Origin: a virus
Length of the DNA stretch: 46,674 nt
Virus record (IMG/VR): IMGVR_UViG_3300044695_000344
Span: 1-46,674 of that record
Direction: 5' to 3' (one strand)
Of the stretch, positions 33,869 to 42,058 are shown in pieces. Below the pieces are notes generated by a model that saw nothing but the letters and a program-made list of their open reading frames with translations, searched no databases and was not told the DNA's origin. The position numbers and the translations under genes were made by a program. Every line of letters starts with the position of its first letter. Within the stretch, counting starts at the first letter, position 1.

Positions 33869-34141
33869 TTAGACAGAGGCAAAGACATTCACGAAAACCG
33901 TGCCGTTTTCAAGCGCTTCAATCTCATGCCACTCGCTGCCCACAAGGTTCACGGGCTGGGTGTCCTTGGTCATCTCCAACTGACGGCCTTCCTTGCGGAT
34001 GATGCAGCGCCCGGCGGTGCAGATGGTTAGATGAGAGTACAGGTGCTCATGGCGTGGTAGCCCCTGCCCAGCGTCGGCATGGTAGACGGTAAGCGTCGTC
34101 CCGTTCTGCGTGACGGTGAAGCGGGGAGCGACCGGGATCAC
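33869..34141 (-). CDS. Small cupin protein, copy B
   Basis: 90 residues, ATG in an ATGA overlap with the gene before it. The cupin signature is visible: GQGLPRHEHLYSHL (HxH) with CIIRKEG, then PVNLVGSEWHEIEALEN, where W-H-E-I-x3-E-N resembles the second cupin motif. A metal-binding single-domain cupin is likely; its ligand is unknown. It is by eye more than 80 percent identical to the gene at 35436-35705 and shares the same upstream partner, so the pair was duplicated. Confidence 0.75.
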   Translation of the reverse strand: MIPVAPRFTVTQNGTTLTVYHADAGQGLPRHEHLYSHLTICTAGRCIIRKEGRQLEMTKDTQPVNLVGSEWHEIEALENGTVFVNVFASV

Positions 34142-34434
34142 AGCGTCTGCGCCCCTTGCGTGGTGGGCTGCTGCGGTTGAGGCTGGCCTGTCACTGGGTC
34201 AACGCCGGGCGCAAGCTGGGTGATCTGGCCTTCGATGTTGCCGTCAACGATCTGCTGGTACACCCACTTGCCAGTCTTGGCGTAGTCGTCAGAGCGAGCG
34301 CAGTACAGGCAGACCTCAAACGGGAACCCTTCATCTGGGGAGATTTCTACATCTGCGAAATACACGCCTTCTTCGTCGCCCGACTTGCGGACGTTGCGGA
34401 TCGCGCCAAAAGTAATGGTGCCGATGGTATGCAT
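34138..34434 (-). CDS. Small protein paired with cupin, copy B
   Basis: 98 residues; the ATG at 34434 (MHTIGTITFGAIR) is chosen because AAAGGAG lies nine bases upstream. The tail PQQPTTQGAQTL closely matches the tail of the protein at 35702-35998 (PTQPATTGAQTL), although the rest differs, so a C-terminal exchange or ancient duplication is likely. The middle looks like a small beta protein (EGVYFADVEISPDEGFPFEV). Position in the fibre cluster suggests a tail accessory protein. Confidence 0.6.
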   Translation of the reverse strand: MHTIGTITFGAIRNVRKSGDEEGVYFADVEISPDEGFPFEVCLYCARSDDYAKTGKWVYQQIVDGNIEGQITQLAPGVDPVTGQPQPQQPTTQGAQTL

Positions 34435-34445
34435 GATTTTCTCCT

Positions 34446-35426
34446 TTAGGCGGTGCGTTGCATTAGGATTAAACCTAAACCATAACTGCAAGGATAACCT
34501 TGGGAAATGCTAGCTACCCCTCGGGATCGCCATGTTCCAGCTAGAGCTGTTGAACCACCACCAGAGAAAAAATTAAAATCATAAGCCGTAGAAGAATTAA
34601 AATAAACAGACGCTGATTGATTTCTGTTAGGGAAAGTAGATTGATCATTAACAAATACATAAGAACCAATCGGAAAACTGCTATTAGAAGTAGAACTACC
34701 CGTGTAGTAGTCCAGCGCAATAGTCCCGCTGGTAGTAATGGTGCCGCCGGTCAGGCCAGCACCTGCGGTAATGGATGTAAGTGCAGCGGTTGAATTTACA
34801 GTGACTGCGCCAGTAGCGCCGCTAACACTAATGCCCGTGCCCGCGATAAGGCTGGTGACCCCAGAGTTCGTGAAGGTCACTGCGCCGGTGGCACCGCTGA
34901 CACCAATACCTGTCCCAGCAACTGCGCTGGTAACGCCCGTGTTGGCTACCGTCACTGCGCCGGTTGAAGCGCTGACACTTACCCCCGACCCGGCAGTTAG
35001 GCTCGTAACACCTGCCGCCGCAGCAACAAAATCTCCAGAGTTGGAGTTCCAAGCAATTAGAGAAATCCCAGCAGCTACAACAGTTACACCCGTTGTCGGG
35101 GAGGTGGGGCCGCCCTTGAGAACTACGCTGCTGTCTGAGTTGTTGATAACAACGTAGACCTTGTTCTGCTTGGGCGCATAGATGTTGCGTGTCGTGCCCG
35201 GAGTCCCCGTAGCAATCAGGATCGCACTACGCGCTTGGTTGGCAGCGCCGCCGCCATCAGTAGTCAGCGTCCAATCGCCAGCCGTCACGCTCTGAGTGGA
35301 GGCGGAAGCAATCGCGTCCTCAACCAAATCGGTAAGCTGGGTGTTAACAACACCGCCCCACGTATTCGTGAGTTCCCCCGGTGATGGCTGAACAAATCCC
35401 AACAGAGGGGTATAGGAAGAAGGCAT
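34446..35426 (-). CDS. Tail fibre protein with 25-residue repeats
   Basis: 326 residues. The N-terminus (PLLGFVQPSPGELTNTWGG) is the kind of attachment segment I know from phage fibre genes. Residues about 139-213 hold three 25-residue repeats of the form GVTS-x3-GxGxxVSxxTGAVTxxN. The C-terminal 80 residues (Ser/Asn/Phe-rich, ending GLGLILMQRTA) form a distinct tip encoded by AT-rich DNA between 34470 and 34730, unlike the GC-rich rest. The tip is probably the receptor-contacting part and may have been acquired separately. The gene lies between the two cupin modules. Confidence 0.7.
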   Translation of the reverse strand: MPSSYTPLLGFVQPSPGELTNTWGGVVNTQLTDLVEDAIASASTQSVTAGDWTLTTDGGGAANQARSAILIATGTPGTTRNIYAPKQNKVYVVINNSDSSVVLKGGPTSPTTGVTVVAAGISLIAWNSNSGDFVAAAAGVTSLTAGSGVSVSASTGAVTVANTGVTSAVAGTGIGVSGATGAVTFTNSGVTSLIAGTGISVSGATGAVTVNSTAALTSITAGAGLTGGTITTSGTIALDYYTGSSTSNSSFPIGSYVFVNDQSTFPNRNQSASVYFNSSTAYDFNFFSGGGSTALAGTWRSRGVASISQGYPCSYGLGLILMQRTA

Positions 35427-35435
35427 ATAGTACCT

Positions 35436-35705
35436 CTAGGCGGCAAATACGTTGATAAACACAGTCTCATTTTCCAGCGCTTCAATCTCATGCCATTCGT
35501 TGGCCGTAAGGTTGACCGGCTGCGTGTCTTTGGTCATCTCCAACTGACGGCCTTCTTTGCGGACAACGCAACGCCCGGCGGTGCAGATGGTTAGATGAGA
35601 GTACAGGTGCTCATGGCGCGGTAGCCCCTGCCCCACGTTGGCATGGTATACGTTCAGTGTGGTGCCGTCTTGCGTGACGGAGAACCGAGGAGCGACTTGG
35701 ATCAC
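35436..35705 (-). CDS. Small cupin protein, copy A
   Basis: 89 residues starting at GTG 35705, inside a GTGA overlap with the preceding stop; the longer frame to 35831 is just the read-through of that gene in another frame. It has the same cupin motifs as copy B (GQGLPRHEHLYSHL; EWHEIEALEN) and about 15 substitutions against it, mostly conservative (for example Ile to Val). Metal-binding His residues are kept in both copies, so both are probably functional. Confidence 0.72.
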   Translation of the reverse strand: MIQVAPRFSVTQDGTTLNVYHANVGQGLPRHEHLYSHLTICTAGRCVVRKEGRQLEMTKDTQPVNLTANEWHEIEALENETVFINVFAA

Positions 35706-35998
35706 AGTGTCTGCGCTCCAGTGGTGGCAGGCTGCGTCGGAGTAACAGGCTGTGGCTCGTTGGTGGTCAGGTAGGTTCCGTCCCATGTGAAGCCAATCTG
35801 GCCTGCGCCAACTTGAACGCCAAGGCTCCAAGTCTTAGCCACAGAGTCGTACTCCCAGACCTTTGCTGGGGTAGCGGCTTGAACAAGCATCAAGTGGTCA
35901 GGCGGCGGAGTCCAAGTATTAGGATTGCCGTCCCACATCACCACATTGTCACAGATGTTAGAGGTCGTATCGACCATGCAATAAGGTTGTGCATTCAT
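35702..35998 (-). CDS. Small tail-accessory-type protein paired with cupin, copy A
   Basis: 98 residues from ATG 35998, which has GGTGAT eight bases upstream, a match to the anti-Shine-Dalgarno; ATG 36010 in frame has none. It contains CMVDTTSNICDNVVMWDGN and GQIGFTWDGTYLT, motifs I associate with small phage proteins next to fibre genes. The C-terminus ends in PTQPATTGAQTL as in copy B. Confidence 0.6.
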   Translation of the reverse strand: MNAQPYCMVDTTSNICDNVVMWDGNPNTWTPPPDHLMLVQAATPAKVWEYDSVAKTWSLGVQVGAGQIGFTWDGTYLTTNEPQPVTPTQPATTGAQTL

Positions 35999-36003
35999 GT
36001 TAA

Positions 36004-36801
36004 TCACCATTCAATTAAAACTACACCGGCGGCACCGGCACCGCTAGAGCGAGAAGTGACAGCACTCGCCGATCCGCCACCACCACCACCATAGGCGCGG
36101 CCTGCGTTTCCATTACCGTCGGTAACCGCTGCTCCTCCACCACCCAAAATGGAAGAACCTCCAGTGCCACTGAGAACATAAAAAGTACAACCGTCGCTAA
36201 TGCCAAACCCACCCCCACCACCAGTGCCGCCAATATTTAAATCACCATTAGAGCCAACGCCCCCAGTCCCTCCTACAGCACTGAGAAAATTGTTATTAGT
36301 TGCGTTAGCCCCGCCAGTTGCAGACACGGTAGTGATTGACTGAGTACCAGAAGCCACACTAGATGTGCCTGCCGCAGCACCAACTGTTACTGTGAGCGTG
36401 TTTCCGGGCGTAAGACCGGTCAAAAATTTAATAGCCGCACCCCCGCCACCACCGCCACCTTGAGTGCCAGAACTCGATGTAGACCCCCCCGCACCACCTC
36501 CACCAACAATCGTCATCTTGATCGCTGTGATGCCTGTAGGAATGGTAAAAGTGCCGCTGGAAGTAAAGGCTTGTCCTTGACCGCCGGGTAGGCCCCCCAC
36601 AACAGCCGCAGCAGTCAGCGTTCCGGCAATAGTGACGTTGCCCGCGTTCGTAGCGGTGATCACGTCCGAAGTTGTAGCCCCCGCATTACCCACGCCCAGC
36701 CTCACGGTACCGTCTGGAGTGGCAGGCTGATACAGCGTGAAGTTGTTGGTGGCGGTGGCGCTCTGGCCCACCTGCACGTTGTTGGTTTTTAGGGTGCTCA
36801 T
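36004..36801 (-). CDS. Glycine-rich tail fibre adhesin
   Basis: 265 residues. The N-terminal 75 residues carry fibre-like repeats (TLYQPATPDGTVRLGVGN, TNAGNVTIAGTLTA). From residue 80 the protein has the phage glycine-rich domain: FTSSGTFTIPTGITAIK and MTIVGGGGAGG, then several poly-Gly runs (TQGGGGGGGAA, GTGGGGGFG, AYGGGGGGSA) and the closing GAAGVVLIEW. Such domains form packed polyglycine helices in the S16 gp38 adhesin, with variable loops between them binding the receptor. Host-range determinant is inferred. The gene lies after another fibre gene in the same operon. Confidence 0.75.
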   Translation of the reverse strand: MSTLKTNNVQVGQSATATNNFTLYQPATPDGTVRLGVGNAGATTSDVITATNAGNVTIAGTLTAAAVVGGLPGGQGQAFTSSGTFTIPTGITAIKMTIVGGGGAGGSTSSSGTQGGGGGGGAAIKFLTGLTPGNTLTVTVGAAAGTSSVASGTQSITTVSATGGANATNNNFLSAVGGTGGVGSNGDLNIGGTGGGGGFGISDGCTFYVLSGTGGSSILGGGGAAVTDGNGNAGRAYGGGGGGSASAVTSRSSGAGAAGVVLIEW

Positions 36802-38968: not shown

Positions 38969-41900
38969 CTATGTTGTGTCAACCAGAATCCAAGAATTGG
39001 TCTGGGCGGTGCCAACCGGAGTCCAGCCAGCGTCAGCGGCGGTATTTACATTTTGCCAGCTTACGCTTTGGCTGTCATCAATCAAGACCCACGGCAGCCT
39101 GACATTGCCTACGACACCCTGAGCAATCACGCCCAGAATTTCCTTGGTTCTCTGGACTCCCAAATCGCCAACTTCGGCCGTTGCCTGCGCCCCCGATAGA
39201 GCAACTCCGACAGCTTGGGCAACAGTGCCGACTTGCCCAGTAGCCGCATTGCCGGTGATTGCTTGACCCAGCGCCGTATTGACGATGCCTGCTTCTGCCG
39301 TGCCCGACACGCCAGAAAGCTCAATTGTGACGTTCGTGCCGACTGAGCCAATCTGACCGGTAGCTTGCGCCCCTGCAATCTCAATGACACGGACAACAAC
39401 GCCAACTTGGCCTGTGGCCGCAACGCCAGACAAGCCGATCGTGACCGCTGGACCGACGTTACCTACTTGTCCGGTTCCGACAACGCCGTCTTCCTGCGAA
39501 GAAGTGCTGTCAGTGACGTTGCCAACTTGGCCCTGAGCCTGCACACCGGCCAGAGCAACAGTCCGTTCTCCCGTCGCTACAAAACCGGCTGCGCTGGAGG
39601 CTTGGACGCCCGTCAAAGCTATGGAAGTAGAAACAGCAACCAAACCTACCGCGCCCGTTGCCTGAACACCGGACAAGCTAATGCTAGGCGCATGAACAAC
39701 GGAACCTACCGCGCCCGTTGCCTGAGCACCAGTAAGGGCAACCGTGCGAGATGTAGTGACACTGCCTACCGCGCATGTGGCGCTGTTTCCGGTAATCGCA
39801 ACAGAAGGGCTCTTGCCAACTGAGCCAACCGCGCCTGTGGCTGCAACGCCGGTAAGGGCAACCGTGCGGGACGTAGTAAGGCTGCTCACCTGCCCGGTAG
39901 CAGAAACACCCGTAAGCGCCTGCGCATACTGAACACTGCCAACTTGCCCCGTGGCCGCAATACCATTCAGCGCTATAGATACAGACGCCCCGACGTTGCC
40001 GACCTGACCCGTACCTACAACGCCATTTTCTTGAGCGGACGTGCTGTCAGTGACGTTGCCAACTTGGCCCTGAGCCTGTACGCCCGTTAGCGCAATGGAC
40101 CGCGTACCAACTGCTACGGAACCGGCAGCGCCAGTAGCTTGTACGCCCGTCAGGGATATAGTTGTGGTATCGGCAACAGAACCTACAGCGCCAGTAGCTT
40201 GTACGCCCGTCAGCGAAAAAGACCGCGCTCCGACCGCAACGGAACCGACTTGCCCGGTAGCCTGAACTCCAGTAAGAGCTATGGTTCTGGTGGCCGCGAC
40301 TGAACCAACAGCGCCGGTAGCTGCAACACCGGTAATTGCTATGGATCGCGCTCCGACCGCTACAGACCCAACCTGTCCAGCAGCTTGAACTCCGGTAAGC
40401 GCACCCGAGGTAGAAGGCGCGACGGAACCAACAGCACCTGTGGTCTGAACGCCGGTCAACGCAACGGACCGCGCCCCAACAGCTACAGAACCTACGGCAC
40501 CTGTAGCCGAGACACCGGCCAATGCAACAGAGATAGAGACGCCGGTATTACCAACTTGGCCGGTGGCTACAACGCCGTTCTCTTGAGCGGTTGTGGAATC
40601 CGTAACGTCACCAACTTGGCCCGATGCCTGAACTCCCGTGAGGGCGATAGAACGAGCACCAACTGCCACTGATCCCACAGCGCCAGTGGCCTGCACTCCG
40701 GTAAGGGCAATAGAGGTAGAAGGCGCGACAGAACCAATAGAACCTGTTGCCGCAACTCCCGTGAGCGCAACAGATGTGGATACGCCAACCGAGCCAACTG
40801 CCCCTGTTGCTTGAACACCCGTGAGGGCGACGCTCTGAACGCCAATAGGCGTGACATTTCCTGCGTTACCTGTGGCCTGAACGCCTGTCAGGGCAACTGA
40901 GACCGAAACCCCGGTGTTGCCCACCTGCCCCGTACCGACGACCCCGTCCTCTTGTGCAGTAGTGGAGTCGGTAACAGAGCCGACTGCACCGGTGGCCTGA
41001 ACTCCAGTCAGCGCAATTGAACGCGCCCCGACGGCAACGGAGCCGACTTGTCCGGAAGCTTGAACTCCAGTCAGCCCAACAGCCAGCGTCCTGCTAACTG
41101 ACCCCACCGCTCCGGTGGCCTGCACCCCCGTAAGCGCGACCGATGTAGATACGCCCGTGTTGCCAACTTGGCCCGTGCCGACAACGCCGTTTTCTTGGGC
41201 GGTTGTTGAATCCGTGACATCGCCAACTTGCCCGGATGCCTGAACACCACTGACAGCGACAGAGTTGGAAACACTCAGCGTACCAACGCTGCCGGTAGCT
41301 GCAACACCCGTCAGCGCAATAGAACGAGCGCCAACTGCCACAGAGCCCACGGCCCCAGTTGCCTGAACCCCCGTAAGGGCTACAAAGTTGGAAGCTGCTA
41401 CAGAGCCTGTTGCTCCTGTAGCCACAACACCCGTAAGAGCGACGGAACGAGAGACGGTAACCGTGCCTACCGCGCCGGTGGCTGCAACGCCAGTGATTGC
41501 AACAGTCTGAACACCGATGGGGGTGACCGTTCCTGCCGTACCCGTAGCCTGCACTCCAGTGAGTGCAACAGTGACAGAAACTCCGGTATTGCCTACCTGA
41601 CCGGTGGCTACGACACCGTTTTCTTGCGCAGTGGTTGAGTCAGTGACATCGCCAACGGTGCCCGTAGCTGCGACACCCGTAAGAGCAATAGACCGCGCAC
41701 CAACAGCCACAGAGCCGACTGCACCCGTAGCTGCAACCCCCGTGAGAGCGACAGAGGTTGAAACCGCAACAGAGCCGACCGCTCCAGTAGCCGCAACACC
41801 CGTAAGAGCGACGGAATTTGTGCCACTAACAGAACCGACCGCTCCCGTTGCCTGTACGCCCGTGAGAGCAACGGTAGTAGAGTCAGCAACAGACCCTACC

Positions 41901-42058
41901 TGACCGGTGGCAGATACACCGGTAAGAGCAACGGAAGTAGCAGGCGATACTGTACCAACCGCACCAGTAGCAGTTACACCGGTGAGGGCAACAGTAACAG
42001 GTCCCCCGCCCGCAAGCGAGCTAAAGGGGACGTCTGAAAACGGGGCGTTGCTAAACAT
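38969..42058 (-). CDS. 1029-residue protein of 48 tandem GxxATGxVG repeats
   Basis: Residues 1-20 (MFSNAPFSDVPFSSLAGGGP) are followed by 48 units of 18-22, mostly 20, residues with the consensus VALTGVQATGAVGSVAVSTS (residues 21-989), then a C-terminal 40 residues rich in Trp (VLIDDSQSVSWQNVN, WTPVGTAQTNSWILVDTT). Gly, Ala, Val, Thr and Ser dominate; a beta-solenoid or fibrous shaft is likely. Similar GVxATGxVG units occur in other phage structural genes that I recall. Units near the N-terminus are nearly identical and those near the C-terminus diverge. Position among tail genes suggests a fibre shaft or surface protein. No Shine-Dalgarno is visible; a hairpin sits directly before the ATG. 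Confidence 0.8.
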   Translation of the reverse strand: MFSNAPFSDVPFSSLAGGGPVTVALTGVTATGAVGTVSPATSVALTGVSATGQVGSVADSTTVALTGVQATGAVGSVSGTNSVALTGVAATGAVGSVAVSTSVALTGVAATGAVGSVAVGARSIALTGVAATGTVGDVTDSTTAQENGVVATGQVGNTGVSVTVALTGVQATGTAGTVTPIGVQTVAITGVAATGAVGTVTVSRSVALTGVVATGATGSVAASNFVALTGVQATGAVGSVAVGARSIALTGVAATGSVGTLSVSNSVAVSGVQASGQVGDVTDSTTAQENGVVGTGQVGNTGVSTSVALTGVQATGAVGSVSRTLAVGLTGVQASGQVGSVAVGARSIALTGVQATGAVGSVTDSTTAQEDGVVGTGQVGNTGVSVSVALTGVQATGNAGNVTPIGVQSVALTGVQATGAVGSVGVSTSVALTGVAATGSIGSVAPSTSIALTGVQATGAVGSVAVGARSIALTGVQASGQVGDVTDSTTAQENGVVATGQVGNTGVSISVALAGVSATGAVGSVAVGARSVALTGVQTTGAVGSVAPSTSGALTGVQAAGQVGSVAVGARSIAITGVAATGAVGSVAATRTIALTGVQATGQVGSVAVGARSFSLTGVQATGAVGSVADTTTISLTGVQATGAAGSVAVGTRSIALTGVQAQGQVGNVTDSTSAQENGVVGTGQVGNVGASVSIALNGIAATGQVGSVQYAQALTGVSATGQVSSLTTSRTVALTGVAATGAVGSVGKSPSVAITGNSATCAVGSVTTSRTVALTGAQATGAVGSVVHAPSISLSGVQATGAVGLVAVSTSIALTGVQASSAAGFVATGERTVALAGVQAQGQVGNVTDSTSSQEDGVVGTGQVGNVGPAVTIGLSGVAATGQVGVVVRVIEIAGAQATGQIGSVGTNVTIELSGVSGTAEAGIVNTALGQAITGNAATGQVGTVAQAVGVALSGAQATAEVGDLGVQRTKEILGVIAQGVVGNVRLPWVLIDDSQSVSWQNVNTAADAGWTPVGTAQTNSWILVDTT
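39092..41998 (-). repeat. 60-bp tandem repeat array with higher-order structure
   Basis: 48 units of 54-66 bp coding for the repeats above. A composite block ending in TDSTTAQENGVVGTGQVGN recurs six times (unit pairs 6-7, 13-14, 17-18, 23-24, 32-33 and 41-42), so the array has a larger period of about four to nine units on top of the 60-bp one. Confidence 0.9.

Follow-up and report, generated by a model that had tools for sequence, protein, structure and literature searches.

Tandem tail-fibre cassettes of a freshwater virus, with a shared C-terminal tail and a cupin, point to a candidate two-piece fibre-assembly or fibre-tip system

In Cyanophage Pam3, the fibre gp24 has a Gly-rich tip and is served by the chaperone gp25 (full length Met1-Phe162), in which residues 1-60 belong to a fibre-binding beta-sandwich (PDB 7ypx, PMC9608196). 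The cassettes described here are alike in combining a Gly-rich distal fibre tip with a small cognate protein, and in joining a variable N-terminal part to a conserved C-terminal part (PMC9608196). Unlike gp25, which carries a fused helical C-terminal trimerisation domain, the small proteins end in a short peptide and are accompanied by a separate cupin, and the cupin-linked small proteins belong to many families. Two of these families, D and E, are fused in other viruses to the domain of tail-fibre assembly proteins of the Phage_tail_APC (PF16778) / phage Mu Tfa kind, whereas the cupin-linked versions lack the APC domain and end in the tail. For Alteromonas phage A5/V22, the available extracts of the report on 'transient chaperone caps' (PMC10579305) likewise describe a fibre and its cognate chaperone exchanged as a host-recognition module, and these extracts mention neither a cupin nor a shared tag. 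No paper joining cupins with tail-fibre assembly chaperones was found in the open-access PMC literature. Sequence comparisons point to a two-piece fibre-assembly or fibre-tip system that would be previously undescribed.

The window was a 46,674-nt stretch of a freshwater virus (IMG/VR record IMGVR_UViG_3300044695_000344) and contained two tail-fibre cassettes in tandem, with all six genes on the minus strand in the order GLY265-SM2-CUP2, then FIB326-SM1-CUP1. GLY265 (36004-36801) is fibre-like, with a Gly-rich C-terminal domain ending GVVLIEW, and matched Pfam PF21722 (E 8e-12) and PHROG tail fibre and tail fibre assembly families. Its partner SM2 (35702-35998, 98 aa, small protein family B, specific to the Gly-rich fibre C-terminus) ends in the tail QPATTGAQTL (35705-35734) and overlaps the GTG start of CUP2 (35436-35705, 89 aa) by GTGA (35702-35705). 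FIB326 (34446-35426), also fibre-like, ends LMQRTA and is followed by its partner SM1 (34138-34434, 98 aa, family A, specific to the QR[TVI]A fibre C-terminus), with the tail QPTTQGAQTL (34141-34170) and a GTGA overlap (34138-34141) with CUP1 (33869-34141, 90 aa, GTG start). The true unit is three genes, fibre, small protein and cupin, and the window holds two of them. The first-pass annotation had described two copies of the same two-gene module flanking one fibre gene. One fibre-like gene (34446-35426) does lie between the cupins and a four-base stop/start overlap was correctly seen in each copy, but the fibre belongs to the unit, and the small-protein bodies are unrelated, with only the last ~10 residues (QPxxxGAQTL) matching. 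BLASTP of SM1 against SM2 aligned only this C-terminal stretch and profiles of the two bodies gave no match; homology of SM1 and SM2 was rejected except for the tail.

The long runs of high DNA identity noted earlier correspond to a 299-nt direct repeat (D1; 33878-34176 and 35442-35740) with 83% identity between copies, each containing a cupin gene. Since SM1 and SM2 are alike only at their ends, D1 consists of the cupin together with ~12 codons from the end of the gene that precedes it. CUP1 and CUP2 were 84% identical as proteins, in line with the previous estimate of above 80%, and 82.6% identical as DNA (dN 0.083, dS 0.65). Elsewhere in the window (38969-42058), a 1029-aa protein made of ~13-residue repeats (SVALTGVQATGAVGSV) was observed, which is partly present in the relative L010.

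The AlphaFold model of CUP1 (pLDDT 96.7) was a single cupin barrel with one jelly-roll domain. Foldseek matches in the PDB were cupins (E down to 8.5e-6), and VIA-align gave Z of about 12; HP0902, KdgF, ADO and TM1459 tied, with many cupins at Z 11-12.6. Pfam returned Cupin_2 and AraC_binding, both below cut-off. The best PDB sequence-profile matches were a cellulose oxidative enzyme (9bwf, 7.6e-5) and KdgF (1e-4), a weak similarity. Identity to TM1459, KdgF and 9bwf is about 15-28%, and unlike these proteins the cupin of the window, here termed alpha, is phage-encoded and tied to candidate fibre chaperones. The putative metal ligands H31, H33, H37 and H72, which had been reported as kept in both copies, indeed are, and were invariant in 104 cupin sequences. 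The HxHx3H motif aligned with HSHPWEH of TM1459 in the HMMER alignment, and the fold is common to many other cupins. H72 we take to be the equivalent of the fourth His of TM1459. No alpha cupin relative was present in 84,980 bacterial and archaeal species genomes (one genome per species), and one was present among 50,697 phage records. Prophages in this set accordingly gave no host assignment. Two alpha cupins (L034:3951-4382 and L035:1715-2146) had an extra C-terminal extension of ~50 aa.

A second cupin type, scoring 25-40 bits to the alpha profile and also with HxHx3H, was observed after D or E bodies that end in another tail, [IV]Px[SE][VI]L or IPxTxI (xIPxxVL), at loci L402, L403, L406, L407, L410, L411 and L390 and at L321 and L323. 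It was also observed after complete APC chaperones at L330, L354, L356, L363, L368, L369 and L377.

Close relatives of the alpha cupin were encoded on 50 viral contigs, and within this virus group, contrary to the first-pass annotation, a cupin in a fibre cluster is not unusual. Single-module relatives were looked for: of 40 records searched whole, 37 had exactly one cupin gene, one had a single gene split over the contig ends and two had none, IMG/VR contigs often being fragments and some counts being inflated by near-copies. Both cassettes were present in L002, a 4.5-kb contig with 99-100% protein identity to the window, so the two-cupin state is probably no assembly error. L092 had two complete cassettes with other small-protein bodies. 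L001, L004 and L006 carried FIB326-SM1-CUP1 only. In L010, GLY265-SM2-CUP2 was followed by a different 334-aa fibre without a second small/cupin pair, so that the enclosed fibre gene does vary among relatives. L007 had a chimeric fibre (FIB326 N-terminus and Gly-rich C-terminus), then SM2 and a CUP1-like cupin, and the fibre of L005 and L009 was longer and joined the FIB326 end to a different N-terminus.

Nucleotide comparison of the cupin copies with these relatives ruled out a recent duplication in place, as which the two modules had initially been interpreted. Besides the dS between the copies, CUP1 DNA was 97.4% identical to that of the single-cassette relatives L003, L004 and L006, and CUP2 DNA 95.2% identical to its nearest relative L010. 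With closer relatives elsewhere for each copy, the CUP1 and CUP2 alleles split before those viruses did, and were most likely united by recombination; several cupin alleles were mosaics. The proposed role as a host-range cassette stood in so far as the locus is a variable host-recognition cassette, with differing fibres, chimeras and mosaic cupins, but the direct repeats were not seen to drive the swaps. Of the recombination junctions seen, some fell within fibre genes and others where the body of a small protein meets its tail.

Most small-protein families went with one C-terminal class of the preceding fibre. Fibres ending QR[TVI]A were paired with family A, [LV]RIS with D, GVV[IL]xEW with B and C, GNSNITWxxTGTRFGSI with the SITYSYE family and LRGYNIKNTA with the XkdW-like family. 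Family E was the exception, being preceded by a different ~100-codon ORF. As expected of a chaperone, the small gene thus came straight after its cognate fibre gene and showed specificity for the distal fibre domain, family E excepted. Pam3 gp25 had been named as the expected target of SM2 before the structure search. Of 114 PDB chains compared with the AlphaFold model of SM2 (pLDDT 90), a single one then reached Z>=2, chain a of 7ypx (Cyanophage Pam3 fiber). This weak match (Z 4.8, rmsd 2.7 A) covers 58 residues and falls on positions 1-60 of the chain, which is 162 residues long. Since the chain length fits that of gp25, the matched chain was read as gp25, and on this model SM2 may resemble its N-terminal fibre-binding beta-sandwich. 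Foldseek with the same model gave nothing at E<0.001. A search of solved structures with small-protein profiles B, C and D gave nothing significant and no sequence match to solved chaperones; the family D profile matched PHROG tail fibre proteins. Pfam and PHROG returned nothing for SM1 and SM2, and no APC or helical trimerisation domain.

Many tail-less homologues of families D and E extended into a domain of 65-85 aa. In family D the extensions matched PF16778 Phage_tail_APC (E down to 1.6e-23); in family E they were below the Pfam cut-off or without PF16778 match, and matched a profile built from the whole extension set. No protein with both APC and the alpha tail was found, and only one of 21 APC proteins had an alpha cupin within 1.5 kb (L404, cupin at +856 nt). 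The alternation of APC and tail may partly reflect distinct body lineages within D and E.

The small proteins before cupins form separate families, and in nearly all of them a Pro-rich linker leads to the ending Q-P-x-x-x-G-[AT]-Q-T-L or one close to it. A scan of viral contigs with tail DNA alone, without the cupin, gave at least 116 matches; among the matches listed, 108 of 116 had a cupin (E<1e-3) within 400 nt, and two of the remaining eight were at contig ends. The bodies upstream of the listed matches comprised families A to F, the XkdW-like and SITYSYE families, and those of L096, L161, L191 and L204. Profiles of A and D were weakly similar (hhalign E 0.0018) and the other family pairs compared gave no match. 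Judged by these profiles, the tail is common to about ten small-protein families, most of them unrelated, with A and D perhaps distantly related. Starting from the cupin, 47 of 48 were preceded at no more than 260 nt by an ORF with the tail; only the divergent L049 was not.

For scans with the bodies of families B, D and E alone, a tail was defined by Gly at -5 and an extension, which covers variants such as GTVTA, and a cupin was counted if adjoining the small gene or within 1.5 kb downstream. A cupin was present for 37/40 family B proteins with tail versus 1/27 without, for 31/34 versus 1/32 in family D (Fisher 3e-14) and for 28/29 versus 3/32 in family E (Fisher 7e-13). The single family B exception, L216, has a tail-less SM2 beside a cupin, and two other small proteins of that locus have the tail. 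Conversely, the available sequence of L190 (24 kb), L159, L162 and L454 contained a tail and no cupin.

Several further variants were observed around the tail. A family F small protein (L201:4720-4986) ends IIDEAQTL, the tail minus its glycine, in a virus with two normal tail-bearing ones. A protein of ~50 aa (pattern PEFRxLVKxxGxQxLQVRYxxxxxYTGKWxxVP) often lies between tail-bearer and cupin (L159:7611-7769, L218:3748-3909, similarly in L038, L046, L094 and L140). Just after the family B gene of L240, L277, L278 and L283, deletion scars were found: the tail and almost the whole cupin are missing, and what is left is an ORF of 17-22 codons, 'MIK..LEDGTVFVNVFAEGKY' (the last cupin strand), that overlaps the small-gene stop as ATGA.

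The reading that we favour, at about an even chance, is that each cassette encodes a fibre and a two-piece (split) tail-fibre chaperone or tip complex, in which a tag recruits the 4-His cupin. The body of the small protein would hold its fibre, the product of the gene just upstream, by the distal C-terminal domain: SM2 would bind the Gly-rich end of GLY265, and SM1 the QRTA end of FIB326. The portable C-terminal peptide, QPxxxG[AT]QTL, would be presented on a linker that is Pro-rich and flexible. Its recognition would fall to the common piece, the alpha cupin, a jelly-roll with 4 His that is presumably translated by stop/start coupling with the small gene and would serve every fibre with a chaperone bearing the peptide. 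Many homologues in families D and E have a fused Phage_tail_APC domain in the place that tail and cupin would take. The second fibre-small-cupin unit would have been added to the window by recombination between related viruses. Tag, cupin and APC are all missing from many family B proteins, which suggests that the cupin may be an optional extra and not a necessary half; the second cupin type after full APC chaperones means that replacement of APC is not general; and the invariant metal ligands, which suggest chemistry beyond a simple hub, weaken the split-chaperone reading.

Across 125 distinct tail/cupin pairs, the conserved tail residues had entropy near 0 at codon positions 1 and 2, rising somewhat at A-4, Q-3 and L-1, which admit substitutions, and 1.1-1.9 bits at position 3. 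Pairs from different families that agree in their last five residues differed at a mean of 3 out of 15 nucleotides, their cupins diverging by up to 58%. Such free synonymous variation around fixed amino acids argues against a cause at the DNA level, in which a mobile unit containing the cupin would have the tail as its 5' border (an overlap with the start codon, a ribosome-binding site or a recombination joint) and the tail would be translated by accident. This explanation accounts for the tail normally overlapping the cupin start, for tails travelling with cupins, for bodies swapped just upstream and for deletion scars that remove tail and cupin together, but we consider it improbable, as tails also persist away from the cupin. 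The tail was kept in L223 with the cupin at +586 nt and one ORF between, in L218 with the cupin at +1089 nt and in L237 with the cupin beyond another fibre and cut at the contig end; L201 and L148 have a second tail-bearing small protein and one cupin, and L216 is a further case. At L218:2501-3748, unrelated small proteins of families B and D have matching tails (GTVTA, GTTTA) and share one cupin, which only one of them is near. Given this synonymous variation and these non-adjacent tails, a ribosome-binding site or a recombination joint is unlikely to account for the tail entirely. Tail distance followed cupin distance across unrelated bodies (r 0.48, permutation p 0.0005), and the cupin tree required 50 switches of small-protein family (minimum 11): bodies are often exchanged, and tail and cupin stay together. 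This association is partly explained by adjacency and co-inheritance; the protein-level constraint is not implied by adjacency. Co-variation of the last tail residue with the cupin peaked around ELVMTKDTQPVNLV, a figure that includes clade effects and was not counted as evidence. Least probable is an ordinary accessory gene of unrelated role whose position, with fibre genes on one side and lysis genes on the other, is conserved. The neighbourhood with p151, p205 and lysis genes is conserved in near relatives, but cupins occur in varied neighbourhoods, and both the shared tail on unrelated proteins and its absence where the cupin is absent would be left unexplained.

The main rival keeps the docking of cupin and tag, and holds that assembly is not the point: the small protein would stay on the fibre tip and the tail would moor a cupin, either a metalloenzyme or a cap that binds sugar, whose target would be the surface polysaccharide of the host. 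The first-pass annotation had already raised binding of sugar or metal at the tip of the tail, which is possible. The carbohydrate-active proteins among the best PDB profile matches (9bwf and KdgF), the four invariant His with the HxHx3H motif of TM1459 and the dispensability of the cupin for many relatives are consistent with a tethered tip metalloprotein. A given cupin, however, goes with freely varying fibre C-terminal classes and small families, as would be expected more of a common part than of a receptor-specific one, and no signal sequence or depolymerase domain was seen; on balance this alternative appears unlikely, if a serious one. A cupin that acts as a metal-dependent oxygenase on the C-terminal peptide of the chaperone would make the tail its substrate, in keeping with the invariant His set and the invariant tail glycine. 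Human ADO, a thiol dioxygenase, was among the best VIA-align matches (Z 12.2, 24% identity) but was not distinguished from the many cupins that tie with it, and the chemistry of the tail varies (GAQTL, GAENF, GTTTA), leaving such modification with little probability.

The split-chaperone reading extends to a broader proposal, which we make tentatively and at somewhat less than an even chance: freshwater phages may use a portable C-terminal peptide code, in which tails on unrelated chaperone bodies recruit cupins in place of a fused domain, with at least two tail/cupin pairs. The two proposed pairs are QPxxxGAQTL with the alpha cupin and xIPxxVL with the second cupin type. The ten-residue signature provides a way to find fibre/chaperone pairs in metagenomes, and a testable role is offered for a cupin family so far without function. 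Should the tail prove to be a docking tag, one partner would serve many exchangeable fibre chaperones through a natural peptide code, which would explain how receptor-binding proteins can be swapped without losing the assembly or finishing machinery.
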